From IMG/VR virus record IMGVR_UViG_3300028536_000014, positions 1-64,000 of that record: 64,000 nucleotides of DNA. The stretch is one strand, 5' to 3'. Under the pieces are notes generated by a model that worked only from the letters and a program-made list of their open reading frames with translations, was not told the DNA's origin and searched no databases. The DNA comes from a virus. A program made the position numbers and the translations under genes. Position 1 is the first letter of the stretch. Each line of letters starts with the position of its first letter. Shown here piece after piece: positions 19,441 to 47,533 of the stretch.

Positions 19441-21471
19441 TTAAACTATTTTGGAATGAGAACCTAAGTTTGTATGCATGTGAAGATTTTCTACTACCTC
19501 TTTTGGTGTTAAGAATACGTCTATAGGAGAACTTGGACGATTTTCTTGGAAGAAGTTTCTTGGATTTGAGATCGTCTTAAACTGATCTTCATATGCATAA
19601 GCCGCACCCAAAGAACGATTTGTAATAACAAATCTTGCTACATGAAGTCCTGCATTCGGATGGTGTCGTGCCATTCCGTAATCTTCCACACCAGGCGTCA
19701 TGACAGCATAGATCAATACTTCAAGTAAACTTAAATTAACATCAATTTTAGTATTGACCTGATCAAATAACTCTTGAAGAATAAGCACGGGGGCATCAGC
19801 TTGTGCTCGCTTATGAAGATTCTTCGTATTAGATTCGATAATACTAGCAATATGATCAGCATGATCAGCATAGCTATATTCCATATCAGGAACACGTATC
19901 ACTGGAAACTTTGCATTCCATCCAGTCAAATCAAATACGAAATGATCATACTCGTTTGTACTCCATCCTTTATCTTTCAGGAAGTGAAGAAATTCATACG
20001 AGAAATATCCATAACGTTTATTCTGTTCGATCTGTATCGGTATCTCGACTATAGCGCCGTTGGACAAGGTTTCTTGAATAACGATCTGAGACAATGCGCT
20101 GATACGTCGTGGATTGATCTGATCGATCGTTCTTAACAGTTTAAGATCAGTAAGACCAATGGCGGTATTACGATTCACAATCATCTTGTATTGAGATGTT
20201 TTATTAAACGGTTTAAGATGAAACGACATGGTATTAAACATGAATGTCAAATATCGTTGAGCATCTTCTTTCATCAAAATCTCAGTACCAACAGCCGAAC
20301 CAATGATGTGTTTGGTTGACAGAATGGTCTGAGTCAGCTGTTGAGTTAAAGTTGCCGCACATAGATGTCCAAGGTTAGCAAACCGAGAAACATTATGATG
20401 AAGCATACCAAAACAGACTGAACAAACTTTATGAGGATTATTTTCCTGACAATGTAGTGATGAACGAATTGAAATAATCTTTCCGTATAGATGAGATTCT
20501 TTTCCGATAATTTCTTTTAAACTATTTGTGGTTTCATCCAGATACATCTTACCTTTCATGAACTTGAGATCACCAGCATAAATTTGGCGACCTGTTTCTG
20601 TATAGGAAGGTGGTTTAACTAACCACTCAATATATTTTGTTGAACCACAATCACCAGGTGAAATACTTTGCACAACCATCCCAGAGAGCTGTAGACGTCG
20701 TGCAAAGTATTCGGTATCCTGAAGTGGTGCTTCTGCAGAATAAAGATGCTTAGCAGCCGCACGAGACTCTGCAACGTAGTCATACAACTTATACATTCCA
20801 GTTGTATAATTCGACATGATCGGTGTACTCATGATCGTTCCGGTAACTTCAATCGGAAATCCACGTGCAAGAACACACTGATTAACTTGATTGATATTCA
20901 AAATCTTCATTCGAATAAATTGAACCAGATTATTTCTCTGGAACTTCGGATCATTAAAAATGACCTTGTGTGAATTCGAATAAAAATCTGCAATTGAATT
21001 AGCTGTCGGTTCTGTTTTATTTCTCAATTCGACAATTTGTTCTGCCTGAGCCAATTCTAGAATATCGAGAATATCTAAAGTCGCTACATAACGACCTGCA
21101 AATTTCATCAATTCATTATGAAGCTGGTTAGTGACGTAATAGATAACGCCAAGAATCTCTTCTTTCTGTTGATAGCTGGTGAGGTTATGATCCATAATTA
21201 GTTGTTTTGAGATTCGGCTAATAAGATCAATGTGTGTATTAGACGATAATAACTGACCATTCATAATGCTATCAGCATGATGAGAGTGTGTCAGAGGTAA
21301 GAATGGATACCGTCTATGAAACTCCCAGAAGTACCAGGAATAAACAGCTTTTCGAGTACTTGATGTAACTGTGATTCCATCATCATAAATGAGGTCAATT
21401 GTTTTCGGATAAGTTTCAAGAATAATAGTTGGAGTTAATGGTAATAAATCTCTAGCTTTAATTGCTGTCAC
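19441..21471 (-). CDS. RNA polymerase beta-prime C-terminal part (second set)
   Basis: 676 residues. SPGDCGSTKYIEW (about 271) matches the beta-prime DCGT element, SLHCQENNPHKVCSVCFG (about 337) the CxxCxG element, and the LCAATLTQQLTQTILSTKH stretch (about 371) the bridge/trigger-loop region (bacterial IAAQSIGEPGTQLTMRTFH). It extends far beyond the 436-residue paralogue at 11556, so the two belong to different polymerases or polymerase parts. GTG start inside the end of the small membrane-protein gene. In phiKZ-like phages such split subunits form a rifampicin-resistant polymerase; which of the two polymerases this is cannot be told here. Confidence 0.85.
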   Translation of the reverse strand: MTAIKARDLLPLTPTIILETYPKTIDLIYDDGITVTSSTRKAVYSWYFWEFHRRYPFLPLTHSHHADSIMNGQLLSSNTHIDLISRISKQLIMDHNLTSYQQKEEILGVIYYVTNQLHNELMKFAGRYVATLDILDILELAQAEQIVELRNKTEPTANSIADFYSNSHKVIFNDPKFQRNNLVQFIRMKILNINQVNQCVLARGFPIEVTGTIMSTPIMSNYTTGMYKLYDYVAESRAAAKHLYSAEAPLQDTEYFARRLQLSGMVVQSISPGDCGSTKYIEWLVKPPSYTETGRQIYAGDLKFMKGKMYLDETTNSLKEIIGKESHLYGKIISIRSSLHCQENNPHKVCSVCFGMLHHNVSRFANLGHLCAATLTQQLTQTILSTKHIIGSAVGTEILMKEDAQRYLTFMFNTMSFHLKPFNKTSQYKMIVNRNTAIGLTDLKLLRTIDQINPRRISALSQIVIQETLSNGAIVEIPIQIEQNKRYGYFSYEFLHFLKDKGWSTNEYDHFVFDLTGWNAKFPVIRVPDMEYSYADHADHIASIIESNTKNLHKRAQADAPVLILQELFDQVNTKIDVNLSLLEVLIYAVMTPGVEDYGMARHHPNAGLHVARFVITNRSLGAAYAYEDQFKTISNPRNFFQENRPSSPIDVFLTPKEVVENLHMHTNLGSHSKIV

Positions 21472-21670
21472 AATTTTTATCCGTTTTAGGTCTGTTTCGA
21501 AATATTTTCATAATAGCATAAATTGGCCACACTAACCATGTTACTCCTATAAATAAAGACAGTAACATAATAACCGTAGGTTTTTGTGAACTCTTGTTAC
21601 TATTTTTAACGATAAACACACAAGCTACGATTATTGCTATTTCGATATAAGCAATTTCAATTATCTTCAT
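21458..21670 (-). CDS. Small two-span membrane protein
   Basis: 70 residues from the ATG at 21670, which has AGGAAAGAG upstream; an earlier in-frame start at 21730 lies in the RNAP beta gene and lacks a site. Two hydrophobic spans (IAYIEIAIIVACVFIV and VIMLLSLFIGVTWLVW) with a basic, Cys-ending tail. It overlaps both RNA polymerase genes, an unusual position for a membrane protein. Function unknown. Confidence 0.6.
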   Translation of the reverse strand: MKIIEIAYIEIAIIVACVFIVKNSNKSSQKPTVIMLLSLFIGVTWLVWPIYAIMKIFRNRPKTDKNCDSN

Positions 21671-23825
21671 CGTCTCTTTCCTGAATATACTGATTAATTT
21701 CCGGTAAATACTCAGGTTTAAATCCAGCACACATGAAGATATGATTCACAATCTGAATAGGACGAGAAGCACCTAGTGGTATTACATCACGATCAATAAT
21801 CCGACTAATCTGACTAGGATTATTAGATGCCAATAAATTCCAGTAAATGTTACGACGTGTTACAGGATTGTTAGTCCGATCGAACATTTCCGCAATAGAT
21901 TCGGCTCCAGTATAGCAAGCAAAGATTCGAGATTCAGTTTCTCCAGAAAGACGAGTTGGAGAATTACGATAAGGGTAAGCGAATTTCTCGGATTTAGTTA
22001 CGGAAGAAAGAATGCCGAAATGTTGTAGTCTAGCAGTAGAAGTTGCAGACCATTCACTTGCTAACTTATCCAGAAGGAACATATAAACCTTTCCGATTCT
22101 GATCTTCTTAACTGTTTCAACTTGTTGACCTGATTGGTCAACATATTTAACTGTTGTTCTAGTTGGTTTAAATAGTTGTTCGATTTCTGGAACAATTTGA
22201 TCAGGTAATTTCTTGTTATCTACCGGTAAGAATATCTTACAGGTCCCGTCGTTAATGATGTCACATAGATGTTCAGATTGTTCATTGCGAGATAAAGCAC
22301 TGAAATAATCCGGCATGATATCATTGAAAACACGATAGAAACTCATCAAGTAATCGTAACACTCTAAAAACAGTTCTTGATTTATTTCTAATAACATTTC
22401 TTGATTGACTTCTGGACGCTTATTAAAATCATCAATATGATTTGTTGGTATAATTCCCAACTGTTGTGTAATACGAACAGTAATGTCGTGACAAGCACAG
22501 GTCATATATTGTTCATAAGACTGACCAATATTCATTCGGTGGAAAACCGGACCTGGATCGATAATCATGTCGGCACGAACACCATCAGGACGAATAGGCA
22601 TTTCGTGATCTTCCATGATTTTACAAACGACACCTTTACTTCCGCTTTGATTACTAAACTTATCTCCAATATTTGGAATCAGTTCATATTCGATTACAAA
22701 TTTAGCGTGATACTCATCAATATGTTCTTTTCGATAAATGAGTTTCAATGTTTGTTTCATTTTCTCAGCGTTATGATTTGTGATCGCAAGTGCTCTGACC
22801 AGAATCTTATTAAACGCAGGACTGATATTAATAAACGGTGTTCCAAACTTACGTTTACGTTCAGATCGTAAACGTTCTTCTGTTTCTACTATTTCACGAT
22901 TATAACGTAGAAATGCTTGGACATACTTATCAGCATGATCCGACATTCCAACAGGTGTATTTCGAATAGGGTTATTATTCGAAATGATTTCTATATCGAT
23001 AACACGACCACGTCCTTGACGAACATAAATCTGTTTATCAAATGTATAGTCAATTTCACGCATATCGTTGATACCCATATCAACAACATAGGTATCTGGG
23101 TCATAGGTACGTAGCGCCATCAATAATCCATCTTCTCGAAGATAATCTCCGATGTCTGGAAATGGTTTATTATCACCATAGATATTGATAGGAAATTCAT
23201 TACTTCCCCATTCAACAACACGAGTGTCATAAACTTTATATTTCCAATTCTCAAGTTCCCCACGACGAACAGCGATACCATCTTCAGAAACACCTGGGAT
23301 AGCCATATAGGTTACGTTAACATTACGACCATATGCGTAATTATTTCCGTCTTTAACACCAGGGCTATCCATGAAAACTGTATCTTTAGGAATATAAGTA
23401 GTGTGGCGTAAAAGATCCATTCCTTGTTGAGGGACACAACTCCAACCGAAATACTGATGGAAACTTCGATAAATCGGAATCATAAAACAATCGATTTCTC
23501 CAGTTTCCGAATTTTCATAGATAACCAGAGATTCGGGATTAAGTTTTAAACTATCCTGACCTACACCTTGAGGATATCGATCTATTACCTTAATGATCTT
23601 GCCATTGGCAGGCATGCGAACACCCAAGGTATATTTTGCCAATTCAGATTCAGGACCAGCTTGGATAATCTTTTCTTCCAATCCGTTAGTGATCAAATGC
23701 TGACTGACATGACTTGCCATCATCACTGAACGTGAGCTTGAGTTATTGATTGCGAAAGGGTTAATCGCATGGATCCCCAAAAACTGAGGACGAATCTCGT
23801 TTACTCTATCACTCTGTTTTTCCAA
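21657..23825 (-). CDS. RNA polymerase beta C-terminal half
   Basis: About 722 residues. GDKFSNQSGSKGVVCKI (about 390) matches the bacterial beta GDKMAGRHGNKGVISKI catalytic lysine block, and FHRMNIGQSYEQ (about 432) matches PSRMNIGQILE. The C-terminal part YMFLLDKLASEWSATSTARLQ corresponds to the switch and clamp-contact segment. Together with the beta-prime piece downstream it forms an operon of one phage multi-subunit RNA polymerase. The TTG at 23825 has AGGAG at good distance; the TTG at 23831 is too close to it. The beta N-terminal half is not recognised in the window. Confidence 0.85.
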   Translation of the reverse strand: MEKQSDRVNEIRPQFLGIHAINPFAINNSSSRSVMMASHVSQHLITNGLEEKIIQAGPESELAKYTLGVRMPANGKIIKVIDRYPQGVGQDSLKLNPESLVIYENSETGEIDCFMIPIYRSFHQYFGWSCVPQQGMDLLRHTTYIPKDTVFMDSPGVKDGNNYAYGRNVNVTYMAIPGVSEDGIAVRRGELENWKYKVYDTRVVEWGSNEFPINIYGDNKPFPDIGDYLREDGLLMALRTYDPDTYVVDMGINDMREIDYTFDKQIYVRQGRGRVIDIEIISNNNPIRNTPVGMSDHADKYVQAFLRYNREIVETEERLRSERKRKFGTPFINISPAFNKILVRALAITNHNAEKMKQTLKLIYRKEHIDEYHAKFVIEYELIPNIGDKFSNQSGSKGVVCKIMEDHEMPIRPDGVRADMIIDPGPVFHRMNIGQSYEQYMTCACHDITVRITQQLGIIPTNHIDDFNKRPEVNQEMLLEINQELFLECYDYLMSFYRVFNDIMPDYFSALSRNEQSEHLCDIINDGTCKIFLPVDNKKLPDQIVPEIEQLFKPTRTTVKYVDQSGQQVETVKKIRIGKVYMFLLDKLASEWSATSTARLQHFGILSSVTKSEKFAYPYRNSPTRLSGETESRIFACYTGAESIAEMFDRTNNPVTRRNIYWNLLASNNPSQISRIIDRDVIPLGASRPIQIVNHIFMCAGFKPEYLPEINQYIQERDDEDN

Positions 23826-23885
23826 AACCAAACTCCTTTAATAGTTTTATACATCAACAAAGAAAAACCAGCATCAGCTATCATT

Positions 23886-33247: not shown

Positions 33248-34489
33248 TTACGCAACCGCTGGTAAGTCAATAAGAATTTTTTCCAGACGTTTCTTATCAA
33301 ATTCAGATATATCTGGAGAAAGTTCTTTGATAATCAGATTAACGATGTTTTCTGGACGAATTTCAACTACTGAATAATTAAACTCATTAGTGTTTTTAAT
33401 TACTGATTGTTGTTCTTCTTCCTCTTCAAGACTCAATTTAGAGAAATGAATAAACTGGTATTGTTTCTTTAGTTCGGAGATATGAACAAGAATTGGATGA
33501 AGTTTTGGTGCTTTAATTCTAATGTAGGATTCATTCGGAATTTTTAATAGAATACGTTCAAGTTGGTGTAAACACTTTTGAAGGTCTTCTGATTTAATCT
33601 CAATAGTCTTAAAAATCTTGGCTTTCTTATTCTCGATGAATTCATAATAATCAGAACCATCATCCCTAATCGTCATTAGAACACCACCCTTAGGTTCTTC
33701 TTCGCCATGTGCTAAGCGATCAAAAGAACCTTGGGCAATAATACGTTCATAATTAGAATGAGTGTGAATATGACCTACATTAATAAAATGTTTCACTAAA
33801 CTCAAGTAAGCTGTTTCGTTATGTGTATCGTGTTGACCAGGTATACATCGCATTTGGTAATTAAACGCACCATGCATCATGGCGATATCAACTTGTTCTA
33901 TCCCTTGATTTTTAAAAAGATCATATACTAATTGTAACGTTATATCAGTAGAAGCGGTATATTCATCTGGCACATAAAGAATAGAAAGATTAAGATCTTC
34001 CATTCGTTCTACCATCAATGTTTTAATCCACTTAACATCAGCTACTGATTCTTTAACTGATGAAATAAATTCAAATAGACGAGATTGTTGACGATCATGA
34101 GAGGGGGTTCCTTCCAAGATTCGTAATTTGATTTTATTACGACCACAGAAACTAACCAATCGTGTTATGAATTCCAATGCTTCATAAAGCGCAGGGCCAC
34201 TACAATCGATCAATTGATCAAATAAATCCCCAACAATAAAGATGATATCAAGTCTTGTAAAAATAGATTTGTTTGTAAATTCAGAAAAGTAGTCAGCAAG
34301 GTTGCTAACGATGGCTTTCGCAGGATTTCTAGCATGACCTATATGAATGTCTGATAAACATAAATATCGAAGTTTAGGAGGAGGAATAGACCACTCGTTA
34401 ATAGCAGTCTGTTTATGAACTTCGATATGATTACCATCATCACTTGTTGTAGAATTATTCGTCGTCGAAGACAAGATCATCACTACCAT
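33248..34489 (-). CDS. SbcD/Mre11-like nuclease subunit
   Basis: 413 residues with calcineurin-like phosphoesterase motifs: LCLSDIHIGHA (about 44), IFIVGDLFDQL (about 84), LEGTPSHDRQ (about 123, the GNHD-type block altered to GTPSHD), MMHGAF (about 203) and VGHIHTHSN (about 236). In T4 the counterpart gp47 pairs with gp46 (SbcC-like) to resect DNA ends. No SbcC/gp46 partner lies next to it in this window. The ribosome-binding site is weak and the start overlaps the upstream gene by 35 nt, so a shorter start is possible. Confidence 0.8.
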   Translation of the reverse strand: MVVMILSSTTNNSTTSDDGNHIEVHKQTAINEWSIPPPKLRYLCLSDIHIGHARNPAKAIVSNLADYFSEFTNKSIFTRLDIIFIVGDLFDQLIDCSGPALYEALEFITRLVSFCGRNKIKLRILEGTPSHDRQQSRLFEFISSVKESVADVKWIKTLMVERMEDLNLSILYVPDEYTASTDITLQLVYDLFKNQGIEQVDIAMMHGAFNYQMRCIPGQHDTHNETAYLSLVKHFINVGHIHTHSNYERIIAQGSFDRLAHGEEEPKGGVLMTIRDDGSDYYEFIENKKAKIFKTIEIKSEDLQKCLHQLERILLKIPNESYIRIKAPKLHPILVHISELKKQYQFIHFSKLSLEEEEEQQSVIKNTNEFNYSVVEIRPENIVNLIIKELSPDISEFDKKRLEKILIDLPAVA

Positions 34490-35048
34490 TATTTTGATTA
34501 TCGGTAGCTACACCCGTTTTAGTTTTTGGATGTTCAATACCATAACGATTGAAGATTTGATTCCACCGATCTTTATCAGTCTTTTCCGGTTCCACTTTCA
34601 TTTTTGAAAGTTTATCTGCCGATTGCGCTCCAAGTACACGTTCACCAAGAACCGGAAGACGATTTGCTTGATTACGAGCATTAACGAAAATCTCGCTGAA
34701 CTTACGACCTCTTAGGTTCTCACTTGTCCTAAGGAAGTCAGTTGACATTAATGACGGGACCGTATAAAGAACTTTACCAGTTGAGTTATCTGTAACATCA
34801 ACCGGGTTCATAGGAGATCCTGCTACAGCAACCCAATGAGTGGTAATATTCATACTTCTATCATCATGAACCTTACCAGCAAAAAACGGTAGGAATTTAT
34901 CAACAAAAATAGATTCCGGAAGTTGGTTTGGTGCTGAGTCTTGATTGAACAAATCGCTGTAGGCTTGATCAATATCAGAACTACCTTCTTTATGGACGAG
35001 TTTATTCACTGCTTTTGCTACGTCTGGTGCTTTGTTCTGTTTGCTCAT
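34455..35048 (-). CDS. Hypothetical protein
   Basis: 197 residues from ATG 35048. Helical, charged N-terminus, beta-rich middle, acidic end (DDLVFDDE). Not recognised. Lies between a 140-residue gene and the SbcD-like gene. Confidence 0.55.
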   Translation of the reverse strand: MSKQNKAPDVAKAVNKLVHKEGSSDIDQAYSDLFNQDSAPNQLPESIFVDKFLPFFAGKVHDDRSMNITTHWVAVAGSPMNPVDVTDNSTGKVLYTVPSLMSTDFLRTSENLRGRKFSEIFVNARNQANRLPVLGERVLGAQSADKLSKMKVEPEKTDKDRWNQIFNRYGIEHPKTKTGVATDNQNNGSDDLVFDDE

Positions 35049-35064
35049 GATTAATCTCAACTTG

Positions 35065-35108
35065 TACCTTGTGTAATAGCGTTATTTACCTTGTGTAATA
35101 GCGTTATT
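35065..35108. repeat. Tandem duplication of 22 bp
   Basis: Two exact copies of a 22-nt unit (35065-35086 and 35087-35108) at the 3' end of the 140-residue gene. The second copy makes a stop codon two codons earlier than the text after the first copy would give. Confidence 0.85.
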
Positions 35109-35504
35109 AATGATTTCAAATTTCGAACCATTAATCTGTGCAATTTTTGAAATGTTAGAAACAGCCCCACTAGCAGTTTCAAACTCAACGTAAATCCCCA
35201 AAATAAATTCACTTGGGGAATTAGCATTAGTCTGATTAGTACATTCAACGATTACATTATTGAAGTAACGTCCGAAAAGCGTATTAAGTACTTTCGTCAT
35301 CTCAGTAACAAGAAGTTCAGGTTCATTGTTATAAGTAGCAACTAACCAACCGAATGAAGAAATATTACCACGATGAACATAAGACTGACTTTGATCAGCA
35401 GCAAGAAAATATGCCATGATATAATCGGCCTGTTTCAAGCTTGAAAAAACCCAGCCATCGGTATCTAAACTCGGTATAGCAACAATATCAATATTGGCAG
35501 GCAT
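35082..35504 (-). CDS. Hypothetical protein, possibly virion-associated
   Basis: 140 residues with GGATAA upstream. Beta-rich, starts MPANIDIVAIPSLDTDGW. Its end is shaped by the 22-bp duplication: it now reads NNAITQGK, while the other copy still encodes ITQGTS followed by a stop. I have a weak impression of phage structural proteins but cannot name a family. Confidence 0.55.
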   Translation of the reverse strand: MPANIDIVAIPSLDTDGWVFSSLKQADYIMAYFLAADQSQSYVHRGNISSFGWLVATYNNEPELLVTEMTKVLNTLFGRYFNNVIVECTNQTNANSPSEFILGIYVEFETASGAVSNISKIAQINGSKFEIINNAITQGK

Positions 35505-35553: not shown

Positions 35554-36645
35554 TTATATTTCAATTAAATAAATTGGTTTATTTAACTTTCTCATAGTTT
35601 CGACCATATGTGTCGTTCCTGGAGATTTATCTTTCTTGATGGCGATTAATACATCGGCGTATTTAGCCATCTCCTCATTTCTGATAAAACCAGCTCGTTT
35701 CTGATATTGATCCCAATCTGCTGGAAATTCTTTAAATGGAATAAACCGTTCTTCAGCAAAACGTCTTCCTAACAAATCAACTCCTCTTGCCCCACCTTCA
35801 ACAATCTCTCCTATATTAAACATAGAGCTGTTGATTGTATCACAAACTAGATCGTAATTATCAATAGAACGACTTCCAGCTACAATGACTTTAAGATCTT
35901 TATTATTAATTAGACCTTTAAGCTGGTCTCTTAACTTGCCATAATAATAATTAAACCAACTCGATGTCCAATGTCCTATAGCTTTAGTATCTAGACCATT
36001 TCCAACCATAAAGTAATGAGTGAAAGGTAGTGTTGATTCTTTAAACGCTTTAAGAAGATGAGGAGTTTGAATGATCTTTAATCGAACTGCTTCTTCTATG
36101 TCACGTATGAAAGTTGGATATTCAACTCTCTGAAATCGTTTTCCTTCTTCCTTAGCTTTGAAACCATAAAGTATTCTGAACTGGTCATGCTTACGTTCGG
36201 TTAACAACCAATACCAATATCCTTCGATACTAGCAAATCGACCGTGTTTAGGATGTTCGAATCCGATATTAGCGAAGTGTGATAAATTTCTACCTAATTC
36301 ACTTCTTGCTTTCGACCAACAATTGATGTGGTCAATTGTATCTTCTAATGGATTATAACGAACTCGAATTGGATTTTTCATCTCTTCGTTTGCTACCTTA
36401 ATTAAAATATGGCCATGACAAGCTAATGGGCTACACCAACAGATTAGATCGCGGCCTTTTAATTCTTCTCGAGCTTGTTGTTTGAGTTCTTCGTTTTTAT
36501 CTAACCATTCTTGATACAACTGACAAACCTTATCCCGATCTGCTTCTGAATGCATTGGAAATGGATTTCCCCACTTTGAAGGTCGTCCAATATAAACGCT
36601 ATCCTTCGTAATAATATCAGTCCGTTTATTAAGAACTTTTGGCAT
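35554..36645 (-). CDS. DUF4326 - NADAR-like - SLOG (YspA-like) fusion protein
   Basis: 363 residues, three domains. Residues about 6-85 look like DUF4326 (VYIGRPSKWGNPFP, LICWCSPLACHGHIL). Residues about 95-235 look NADAR-like: LSHFANIGFEHP, SIEGYWYWLL, then AKEEGKRFQR, matching the usual LSNFyp, EhxyqaxK and aKrlGR blocks. Residues about 250-363 are a SLOG/YspA-type domain (VIVAGSRSIDNYD, VEGGARGVDLLG, ADVLIAI). Known: NADAR proteins remove ADP-ribose from guanine, and phage NADARs can counter DarT toxins; SLOG domains sense NAD-derived nucleotides. Inference: an anti-defence or NAD-signal-handling enzyme. The NADAR catalytic residues need checking, since EH is EG here. Confidence 0.75.
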   Translation of the reverse strand: MPKVLNKRTDIITKDSVYIGRPSKWGNPFPMHSEADRDKVCQLYQEWLDKNEELKQQAREELKGRDLICWCSPLACHGHILIKVANEEMKNPIRVRYNPLEDTIDHINCWSKARSELGRNLSHFANIGFEHPKHGRFASIEGYWYWLLTERKHDQFRILYGFKAKEEGKRFQRVEYPTFIRDIEEAVRLKIIQTPHLLKAFKESTLPFTHYFMVGNGLDTKAIGHWTSSWFNYYYGKLRDQLKGLINNKDLKVIVAGSRSIDNYDLVCDTINSSMFNIGEIVEGGARGVDLLGRRFAEERFIPFKEFPADWDQYQKRAGFIRNEEMAKYADVLIAIKKDKSPGTTHMVETMRKLNKPIYLIEI

Positions 36646-38544: not shown

Positions 38545-39138
38545 TTATGATTTTCTTTCCTTTGATGGAAAGAATTTATCGATTGCCATATTGACGGTAG
38601 AAAGATTGAGCTTGCTATAGTGTTTTGATATACCTGCTTCATCTATGATCGGAGGAGTCTTACATAGTTTTGAGCTATCGTCAGTAATATTGACACGGTC
38701 ACCATACTTATTAGCGATGAAATGATCCTCACTTTTTGCAATAAATTCTCCAGTTGCAGTAAAATACAAATCACTTAGAGCAATTTTAATTTCTGAAAGA
38801 TTCATTGAAGCACGATAACCTACCCAATAGTTAGTCGTGGTTTGTTTCATCAAAGTGTATGGTGCATCAGAATCTACGATACTCCCATTACTACTAAGGA
38901 AGGGAATATCTTTCGGATCGTCAATTTCACGACCTTCGAAGTAGATAACACGCCCAGTTGTTGTAACGATGATCGCTTTCTTACCGAGCGTTCCTCTATC
39001 TTGATTCTTGTTCTGATAAACTTCAGCTTCACTGATTAAGAGATTGAGATTTTTACTGGCATTATTACCACAATAGATTCCATTATTTTTCTCTAGCAAT
39101 AAAAACATGTGTTTATGACTGTGTTCTGGATCTGTCAT
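38545..39138 (-). CDS. Hypothetical protein
   Basis: 197 residues, TTAGGAG upstream of ATG. Mixed alpha/beta with a Lys/Asp-rich beginning; not recognised. Ends in a hairpin-free gap before the next gene; a terminator at 39169 lies on its upstream side. Confidence 0.55.
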   Translation of the reverse strand: MTDPEHSHKHMFLLLEKNNGIYCGNNASKNLNLLISEAEVYQNKNQDRGTLGKKAIIVTTTGRVIYFEGREIDDPKDIPFLSSNGSIVDSDAPYTLMKQTTTNYWVGYRASMNLSEIKIALSDLYFTATGEFIAKSEDHFIANKYGDRVNITDDSSKLCKTPPIIDEAGISKHYSKLNLSTVNMAIDKFFPSKERKS

Positions 39139-46315: not shown

Positions 46316-47533
46316 TTACCGACGCTGCCAGTTCCCTTCTTTTGCTACCCGATGCTTTTTCAGAAGTACTCCCTCCGAATATTCAGACGCCACCGGAAGA
46401 CCTTCAGCCGTACGATACGCGGTATAAAAATCCACCAAGAACCGTTTGACACAGAACCGAAGAGCCATGCGATGCTTCTGCAGAGGAGACTTTCCAGCAT
46501 GCTTAGGATTGTTTCCAAGCCGTTCCTTGTAGTTGTAGTAGGCCATCCCGTACGGAGAACCTTCACGCTCAACTGTGAAGCCCTGTCCCATCAGGAAATC
46601 ATTGATGACAGAGTTGGGATCTTCTTCGCCGATGGTCTTCTTGTCGAGTCCATGCTCAACAGCCAGCTCGAGACGTTTTGCCATACCCATTGCTTTGCCG
46701 TTGACCTTGAAAGAGGTCACCTTGAGGAATGCCGGTCCGATGACACCCAACAGCTTGGTTTTGAGGAACGGAGAATAGGTAATGGAATCACGAACAGCTG
46801 GGTTGTCGTTCTTGTCGATGTAGTCACGCTTCACCAACGAGTAGGACTTCATGTCACGTGCAACGCCCACCACATTGCACACCACACCCTTGTGAAAGAA
46901 CACGCCGTCCATGTTTTCCAACTCCGGAGCGTTCATCGCCTGTTCGAACGAAAGCCTGATGGTCTTGTTACCGACTTCGTATTCCACCACCTGGACGACA
47001 TCCAAACCACCGTACGCCCAAAGACTGGACGGGTACTCGGCCTTGTGGATGTCGATCTCGGAGATGAGAACACCAGCCGCTGCCGGGCCGATACCTGCTA
47101 CGCCTTGAAGAAAGTTCTTGTAGACAGGAACCGTTTTGAGCATGATGCCGATGTCAGCGAAGTGCTGCTCTTCGACGTCCAGAATCTTGACGTAGTTCTC
47201 GATCAGGAACAATTCGGCCATGTTGGTGATCAAATCGTCGGGTTGGAAATTGCGTTCCATCTGCAGACGTGTGACCATCTTGCCGCCGGTGATCTCGATG
47301 ATGCCGTCAGTTATACGATTGTAGGAATCACGCAGACGCTTCAGGATACCCTTTTCCTGAGCTCCGAGTTCCTTCTCAGACATGCCGTCGGTCGACATTC
47401 CAAGTTTGGTTCTGAAATTGCCAGCGGTGCGGTTACCGATCATGATACGCAGCTGCTGAAGATCGTAAACCGAACGAACCATCGTCCGAATCTGGGATCT
47501 TTGATATGCGGTGTTTGATGTGGGGTTACTCAC
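46316..47533 (-). CDS. IS110-like (Transposase_20, HhH) protein without RuvC domain
   Basis: 405 residues, GTG start with TAAGGAG upstream. Residues about 143-180 (GVAGIGPAAAGVLISEI, then LWAYGGLDV) match the helix-hairpin-helix start of the Transposase_20 domain of IS110/IS116 transposases. SPFLKTKLLGVIGPAFLKV (about 254-272) and the NPKHAGKS...ALRFCVKRFLVDFY end (342-370) also fit the family. The N-terminal 90 residues are helical and charged; the usual RuvC-like DEDD domain (GIDVSK-type opening) is not visible. No SG-type catalytic serine block is obvious after AYGGL. The gene is clearly more GC-rich than its neighbours. It lies directly downstream, in transcription sense, of the 36-nt array. 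Known: IS110 enzymes use a bridge RNA. Whether this one is a recombinase or a domesticated binder is open. Confidence 0.75.
   Translation of the reverse strand: MSNPTSNTAYQRSQIRTMVRSVYDLQQLRIMIGNRTAGNFRTKLGMSTDGMSEKELGAQEKGILKRLRDSYNRITDGIIEITGGKMVTRLQMERNFQPDDLITNMAELFLIENYVKILDVEEQHFADIGIMLKTVPVYKNFLQGVAGIGPAAAGVLISEIDIHKAEYPSSLWAYGGLDVVQVVEYEVGNKTIRLSFEQAMNAPELENMDGVFFHKGVVCNVVGVARDMKSYSLVKRDYIDKNDNPAVRDSITYSPFLKTKLLGVIGPAFLKVTSFKVNGKAMGMAKRLELAVEHGLDKKTIGEEDPNSVINDFLMGQGFTVEREGSPYGMAYYNYKERLGNNPKHAGKSPLQKHRMALRFCVKRFLVDFYTAYRTAEGLPVASEYSEGVLLKKHRVAKEGNWQRR

Follow-up and report, generated by a model that had tools for sequence, protein, structure and literature searches.

The NADAR protein gp30.3 of bacteriophage T4 (PF08010) hydrolyses guanosine-ADPr on DNA and RNA in vitro (PMC11125620, PMC11833690), but neither gp30.3 nor YbiA gave cells protection from DarT1 (PMC11125620). 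Characterized NADARs carry a phosphate-binding lysine seven residues after the conserved glutamate (position E+7; K50/K95, with K95 described in PMC11543638). In the E. coli C7 NADAR, mutation of K95 abolishes guanine-ADP-ribose hydrolysis, while catalysis in vitro does not require the counterpart of K75, which is nevertheless needed in cells (PMC11543638). Fusions of DUF4326 to SLOG, Macro and NADAR domains in jumbo phages are described, in the available text of a 2021 survey (PMC7824862) and a 2022 survey of viral NAD–ADPr proteins (PMC9503650), as predicted to act on ADPr derivatives. The available text of the latter also proposes that viral SLOG domains sense or cleave cADPR-type signals and that DUF4326 is a rhodanese-phosphatase acting on the phosphates of ADPr products.

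The window analysed here, a 64 000-nucleotide stretch, comes from a virus record of 244 725 bases that encodes a split multisubunit RNA polymerase of the phiKZ type. Subunit genes of this polymerase lie at 19441–23831 (−), the second having its nearest annotated relative in Burkholderia phage FLC9 (39% identity). A single open frame at 35554–36645 (−) encodes a protein of 363 residues in which a DUF4326 domain, a middle domain and a YAcAr-type SLOG domain follow one another. The domain families and the kind of phage are those of the published fusion network (PMC7824862, PMC9503650), and the available text of these surveys already contains both the fusion class and the idea of counter-signalling, although it does not name this exact order. 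New here are the specific order in four phages, a NADAR domain that is seen at the level of fold and missed by Pfam, and the pattern of lysines in that domain. We consider the protein to be a single-chain enzyme of phiKZ-like jumbo phages that processes ADP-ribose derivatives, with a probability of roughly 0.55; catalysis, substrate and purpose (whether it serves counter-defence or repairs ADP-ribosylated nucleic acid of the phage) are what we infer from the comparisons below.

Domain organization and fold of the middle domain

The 363-residue protein was characterized from its open reading frame, Pfam and PHROGs matches and a whole-length model with a pLDDT of 91.4 and a pTM of 0.59, in which each of the three domains is predicted to fold well and their relative orientation is uncertain. 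The DUF4326 domain (about residues 1–85; 36391–36645, −) is matched by PF14216 at residues 12–82 with an E value of 4.5e-23 and 82.1 bits (curated cut-off 25). It contains the motif C69-x-C71-x-P-x-x-C76-H77-G, which is present in every aligned DUF4326 row, and is the sole DUF4326 in the virus record. The YAcAr/YspA-type SLOG domain (residues 249–363, stop included; 35554–35901, −) is matched by PF10686 at residues 252–314 with an E value of 2.6e-11 and 43.6 bits (curated cut-off 28.2) and displays the motifs AGSR, GGARGVD and ADW...AG..RN. To our knowledge, no function has been tested so far for DUF4326 or for phage YAcAr SLOG domains.

Comparison of the whole-length model with the PDB returned SLOG folds in every row listed and is hence silent on DUF4326. 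The SLOG model gives Z scores of about 12 to YpsA, DprA, ShosA and Moco carriers and of 8.8–10.4 to the SLOG domain of ThsA, and PADLOC gave just a weak match, of SLOG to ShosA (E value of 0.011). The first-pass annotation had connected the SLOG domain with NAD-derived signals used in defence. The fold does include the cADPR sensor of ThsA, but DprA, YpsA and ShosA are at least as close, and a cADPR ligand is thus not specifically indicated by the model.

The middle domain (residues 97–246; 35908–36357, −) had no Pfam match at E ≤ 10, including PF08719 (NADAR) and PF08010 (gp30.3), and PF08719 had no match in the entire virus record at E ≤ 1. Residues 91–246 match PHROG 652 (phrog_652) with an E value of 2.4e-31, and residues 91–353 match phrog_11222. 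T4 gp30.3 also matches phrog_652 (E value of 9.2e-51), and a pairwise BLAST between gp30.3 and the 363-residue protein gave no credible match. An AlphaFold2 model of the middle domain, built with an alignment of 17 viral relatives, has a pLDDT of 90.6 and a pTM of 0.84. Among 350 542 PDB chains searched with Foldseek, the top matches were YbiA (2b3w; E value of 5e-4) and two NADAR entries (8bau, 0.017; 8bat, 0.11), with probabilities of 0.90–1.00 for these three and ≤ 0.09 for the other matches listed. VIA comparison of the same model with the PDB gave Z scores of 11.6, 10.7 and 8.9 for the three solved YbiA/NADAR entries and no further chain at Z ≥ 2. The best PDB sequence match to the profile of the viral-relative alignment (hmmsearch) was again 8bau, with an E value of 0.036 that is weak by itself; in profile alignments, the core motifs of T4 gp30.3 and YbiA line up in register with that of the middle domain (LSNFA...EG, shared with gp30.3). 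As modelled, the middle domain has the NADAR (YbiA) fold, an assignment that draws jointly on fold and motif register, the sequence matches taken singly being weak. Its membership of the NADAR family is visible by fold and not through the PF08719 profile.

These data confirm the triple fusion proposed in the first-pass annotation: Pfam identifies both ends, the predicted structure of the middle domain matches 2b3w, 8bau and 8bat only, and the same order recurs in three further contigs. A chance or assembly fusion is ruled out because the three-domain order spans the full length in those contigs.

Active-site residues and the lysine pattern

In the alignment to 8bau (numbered along its 189-residue chain, with the first residue as −1), E43, K50, K75 and R79 correspond to E141, L148, K165 and K169. 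The conserved NADAR glutamate (E43 in P. nicotianae, E88 in E. coli C7) is therefore represented by E141, and this position is Glu in 95% of the family. His210 lies on the first strand that the model shows beyond the helical core, is conserved as His in 95% of the family and is likely to be the phage-type NADAR histidine, the local alignments ending short of it. The NADAR-like domain of the first-pass annotation accordingly has not only the fold but also a group of conserved polar residues, E141, K165 and H210, so that the refuting outcome named in that annotation did not occur. With T4-type rows set apart, these three (K or R at 165) are retained jointly in 80 of 85 distinct phage relatives, and the remaining five are degenerate copies that lose or alter several of them at once.

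The lysine at E+7 is replaced by Leu148 in the alignments to both 8bau and T4 gp30.3, and roughly one third of the clade has K or R at position 148. Unlike the 363-residue protein, which has Leu at E+7 and Lys at 165, T4 gp30.3 consists of one domain and has Lys and Gln, respectively, at these two positions; the catalytic Glu is shared by both. E. coli YbiA shows the reverse arrangement as well, with Lys at E+7 but a residue other than Lys at 165. YbiA and the eukaryotic and DarT1-linked NADARs share the fold of the middle domain (Z scores of 8.9–11.6), but retain the E+7 lysine and have Glu or Asp, not His, in the last strand (PMC11125620). This distribution suggests that K165 may assume the lysine role in the clade of the 363-residue protein, and it poses a specific mutational question on NADAR chemistry; caution is warranted because the K75 equivalent is dispensable in vitro in the E. 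coli C7 enzyme. Judged by its sequence, the protein is not classed as a proven guanine-ADPr hydrolase, as it has Leu in place of the E+7 lysine.

Compensation for the lost lysine by a nearby basic residue was considered and rejected, as positions 151–152 showed no association; with related sequences counted as independent, lysine loss was associated only with positions 172, 182 and 184. Lys148 is present in none of the eight SLOG-fused NADAR domains seen, whereas roughly one third of the domains elsewhere have it (p about 0.05, relatives counted as independent), and at this p value we do not claim that its loss is due to SLOG fusion. A second, degenerate NADAR-like domain is located in a 612-residue protein of the same phage (L027, 187–2022, −; G000:177723–178094), with Glu changed to Ser, K165 to Gln and His to Met, and is probably inactive. 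Pairs of NADAR domains per contig also occur in L188 and L179, where the second copy (e.g. L188, 3431–3940) is without the Glu and K165; the second NADAR-like open reading frame of L188 has lost the His as well.

Relatives and fusion partners

Scanning of viral contigs with a profile yielded 124 confirmed relatives of the middle domain, and domain orders were examined in 80 of these. The DUF4326–NADAR–SLOG order was found in four proteins (the window, L138, L141 and L161), the DUF4326–NADAR order in three (L129, L149 and L198) and the NADAR–SLOG order in one viral contig. The 363-residue protein is 37–40% identical to its three counterparts, and all four phages have a phiKZ-type polymerase. 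The fusion ties DUF4326 and SLOG to NADAR in four divergent large phages and offers a compact protein for questions of substrate and division of labour. The NADAR tree gave no resolution on a single origin of this order, and one relative (L226) weakly matches PF08010 (E value of 0.001). The same scan on 84 980 cellular species returned only ten relatives, mostly from metagenome bins, and the clade is nearly confined to phages. In one such bin (WOR-3; L223, 4457–4948) a DUF488-N3a protein immediately follows the NADAR-clade gene.

Among the closest described proteins are those of Erwinia phages. RAY gp153, the best match among viral models, and AH06 gp160 are NADAR–SLOG proteins that keep the E/K165/H residues of the 363-residue protein, and RAY also resembles the window phage in its phiKZ-type polymerase. 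QXO10117 of phage pEa_SNUABM_37 combines Macro, NADAR and SLOG in one chain and shares the NADAR–SLOG order and these residues. DUF4326 is absent from all three, their N-terminal slot being empty or occupied by Macro; in RAY and AH06 a separate Macro gene lies shortly upstream of the NADAR–SLOG gene.

More broadly, many jumbo phages carry NADAR together with Macro, SLOG and DUF4326, either fused or in the same genome. Among 17 phages with a phiKZ-type polymerase, six have DUF4326 above the cut-off, one of them with Macro, whereas the 11 without DUF4326 all match Macro (one below the cut-off). With related phages counted as independent and a weak Macro match in a 724-residue frame of G006 discounted, this reciprocal pattern has a Fisher p of 0.001, or 0.005 without the below-cut-off match. 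On the same counting, the association is positive in 31 other phages (p 0.007), and replacement of Macro by DUF4326 was dropped as an explanation in view of this reversal. Two further arrangements were observed. In Salmonella phage SA002 (L210, 4955–6828), a Macro–NADAR gene (290 residues) is followed by a gene for a Macro tail, NADAR and SLOG (326 residues), and a nearly identical part shared by these neighbours looks like a tandem partial duplication. In L018 (4968–6980), three separate neighbouring open reading frames on one strand encode NADAR, a DUF4326-like protein (two half matches) and SLOG.

Gene neighbourhood and possible function

The 363-residue frame is followed downstream by a block at 33248–35504 comprising genes for a phrog_3294 protein (35082–35504, −), a phrog_5171 protein (34455–35060, −) and an SbcD-like nuclease subunit (33248–34489, −). 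No defence or toxin gene adjoins the frame, the neighbours being the SbcD-like nuclease and genes of no known function. In contig G004, a DUF4326–NADAR gene precedes the same block (phrog_3294, phrog_5171, SbcD and further genes), and the two genes therefore seem to occupy one locus, with the SLOG domain as the difference between them. A gene order shared with Erwinia phage RAY was rejected, as a 140-residue neighbour in the window is unrelated to RAY gp151.

In the single-chain enzyme that we favour, NADAR would most likely be an N-glycosidase that takes ADP-ribose off a base; its substrate would probably be guanine of nucleic acid or else a related soluble ADP-ribosyl nucleotide. SLOG would bind a nucleotide or single-stranded nucleic acid, or cut a base–ribose bond, and DUF4326 would act on a phosphate or on the end product. 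The purposes considered next, repair and counter-signalling, are narrower forms of this reading, so that their likelihoods overlap with it and do not add up to one.

As a repair factor, which we regard as a plausible proposal at somewhat less than even odds, the protein would strip ADP-ribose from phage DNA or RNA by means of NADAR, with a DprA-like SLOG domain tethering it to single-stranded nucleic acid. The proximity of SbcD in the window and in G004, and of a UvsX-like recombinase and RNA polymerase subunits to the NADAR–SLOG gene in the Erwinia phages, argues for such a role, as does T4 gp30.3, which is active on DNA and RNA (PMC11125620, PMC11833690) and is encoded three genes away from DNA ligase. 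The neighbourhoods nevertheless vary among phages (a helicase and RNAP take the place of the SbcD block in G006), and the absence of the E+7 lysine weighs against this chemistry.

A counter-defence role is possible. The first-pass annotation had envisaged blocking of DarT toxins, which is not favoured now: the E+7 lysine is absent from the 363-residue protein and from all eight SLOG-fused NADARs seen, and T4 gp30.3, active in vitro, failed to rescue cells from DarT1 (PMC11125620). Alternatively, SLOG could capture an NAD-derived messenger (a cADPR isomer or similar) for destruction by NADAR and DUF4326, blocking a Thoeris-like defence. Such counter-signalling is proposed for the viral SLOG/Macro/NADAR/DUF4326 network in the available text of the 2022 survey (PMC9503650) and is consistent with the similarity of SLOG to the ThsA sensor, but the greater or equal similarity to DprA, YpsA, ShosA and Moco carriers leaves it rather unlikely. 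In its most specific form, which we hold to be a long shot, SLOG would bind an NAD-derived immune messenger, NADAR would open the base–ribose bond with the relocated active-site K165 and DUF4326 would remove phosphate; if true, phiKZ-like jumbo phages would possess an enzymatic anti-signalling protein of a new kind. It is improbable that NADAR has become a binding-only sensor or scaffold, with DUF4326 or SLOG doing the chemistry, as L148 in place of K50/K95 and the degenerate copies in the same phages (L027) could suggest, since E141, K165 and H210 are tightly co-conserved both without and with K/R at 148 (57 and 23 distinct sequences, respectively).

Elsewhere in the window, positions 39001–64000 have no near-identical DNA in the phage collection. 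This part includes a transposase-like open reading frame at 46316–47533 (−), located inside the jumbo phage and matching phrog_4285 with an E value of 5e-22.
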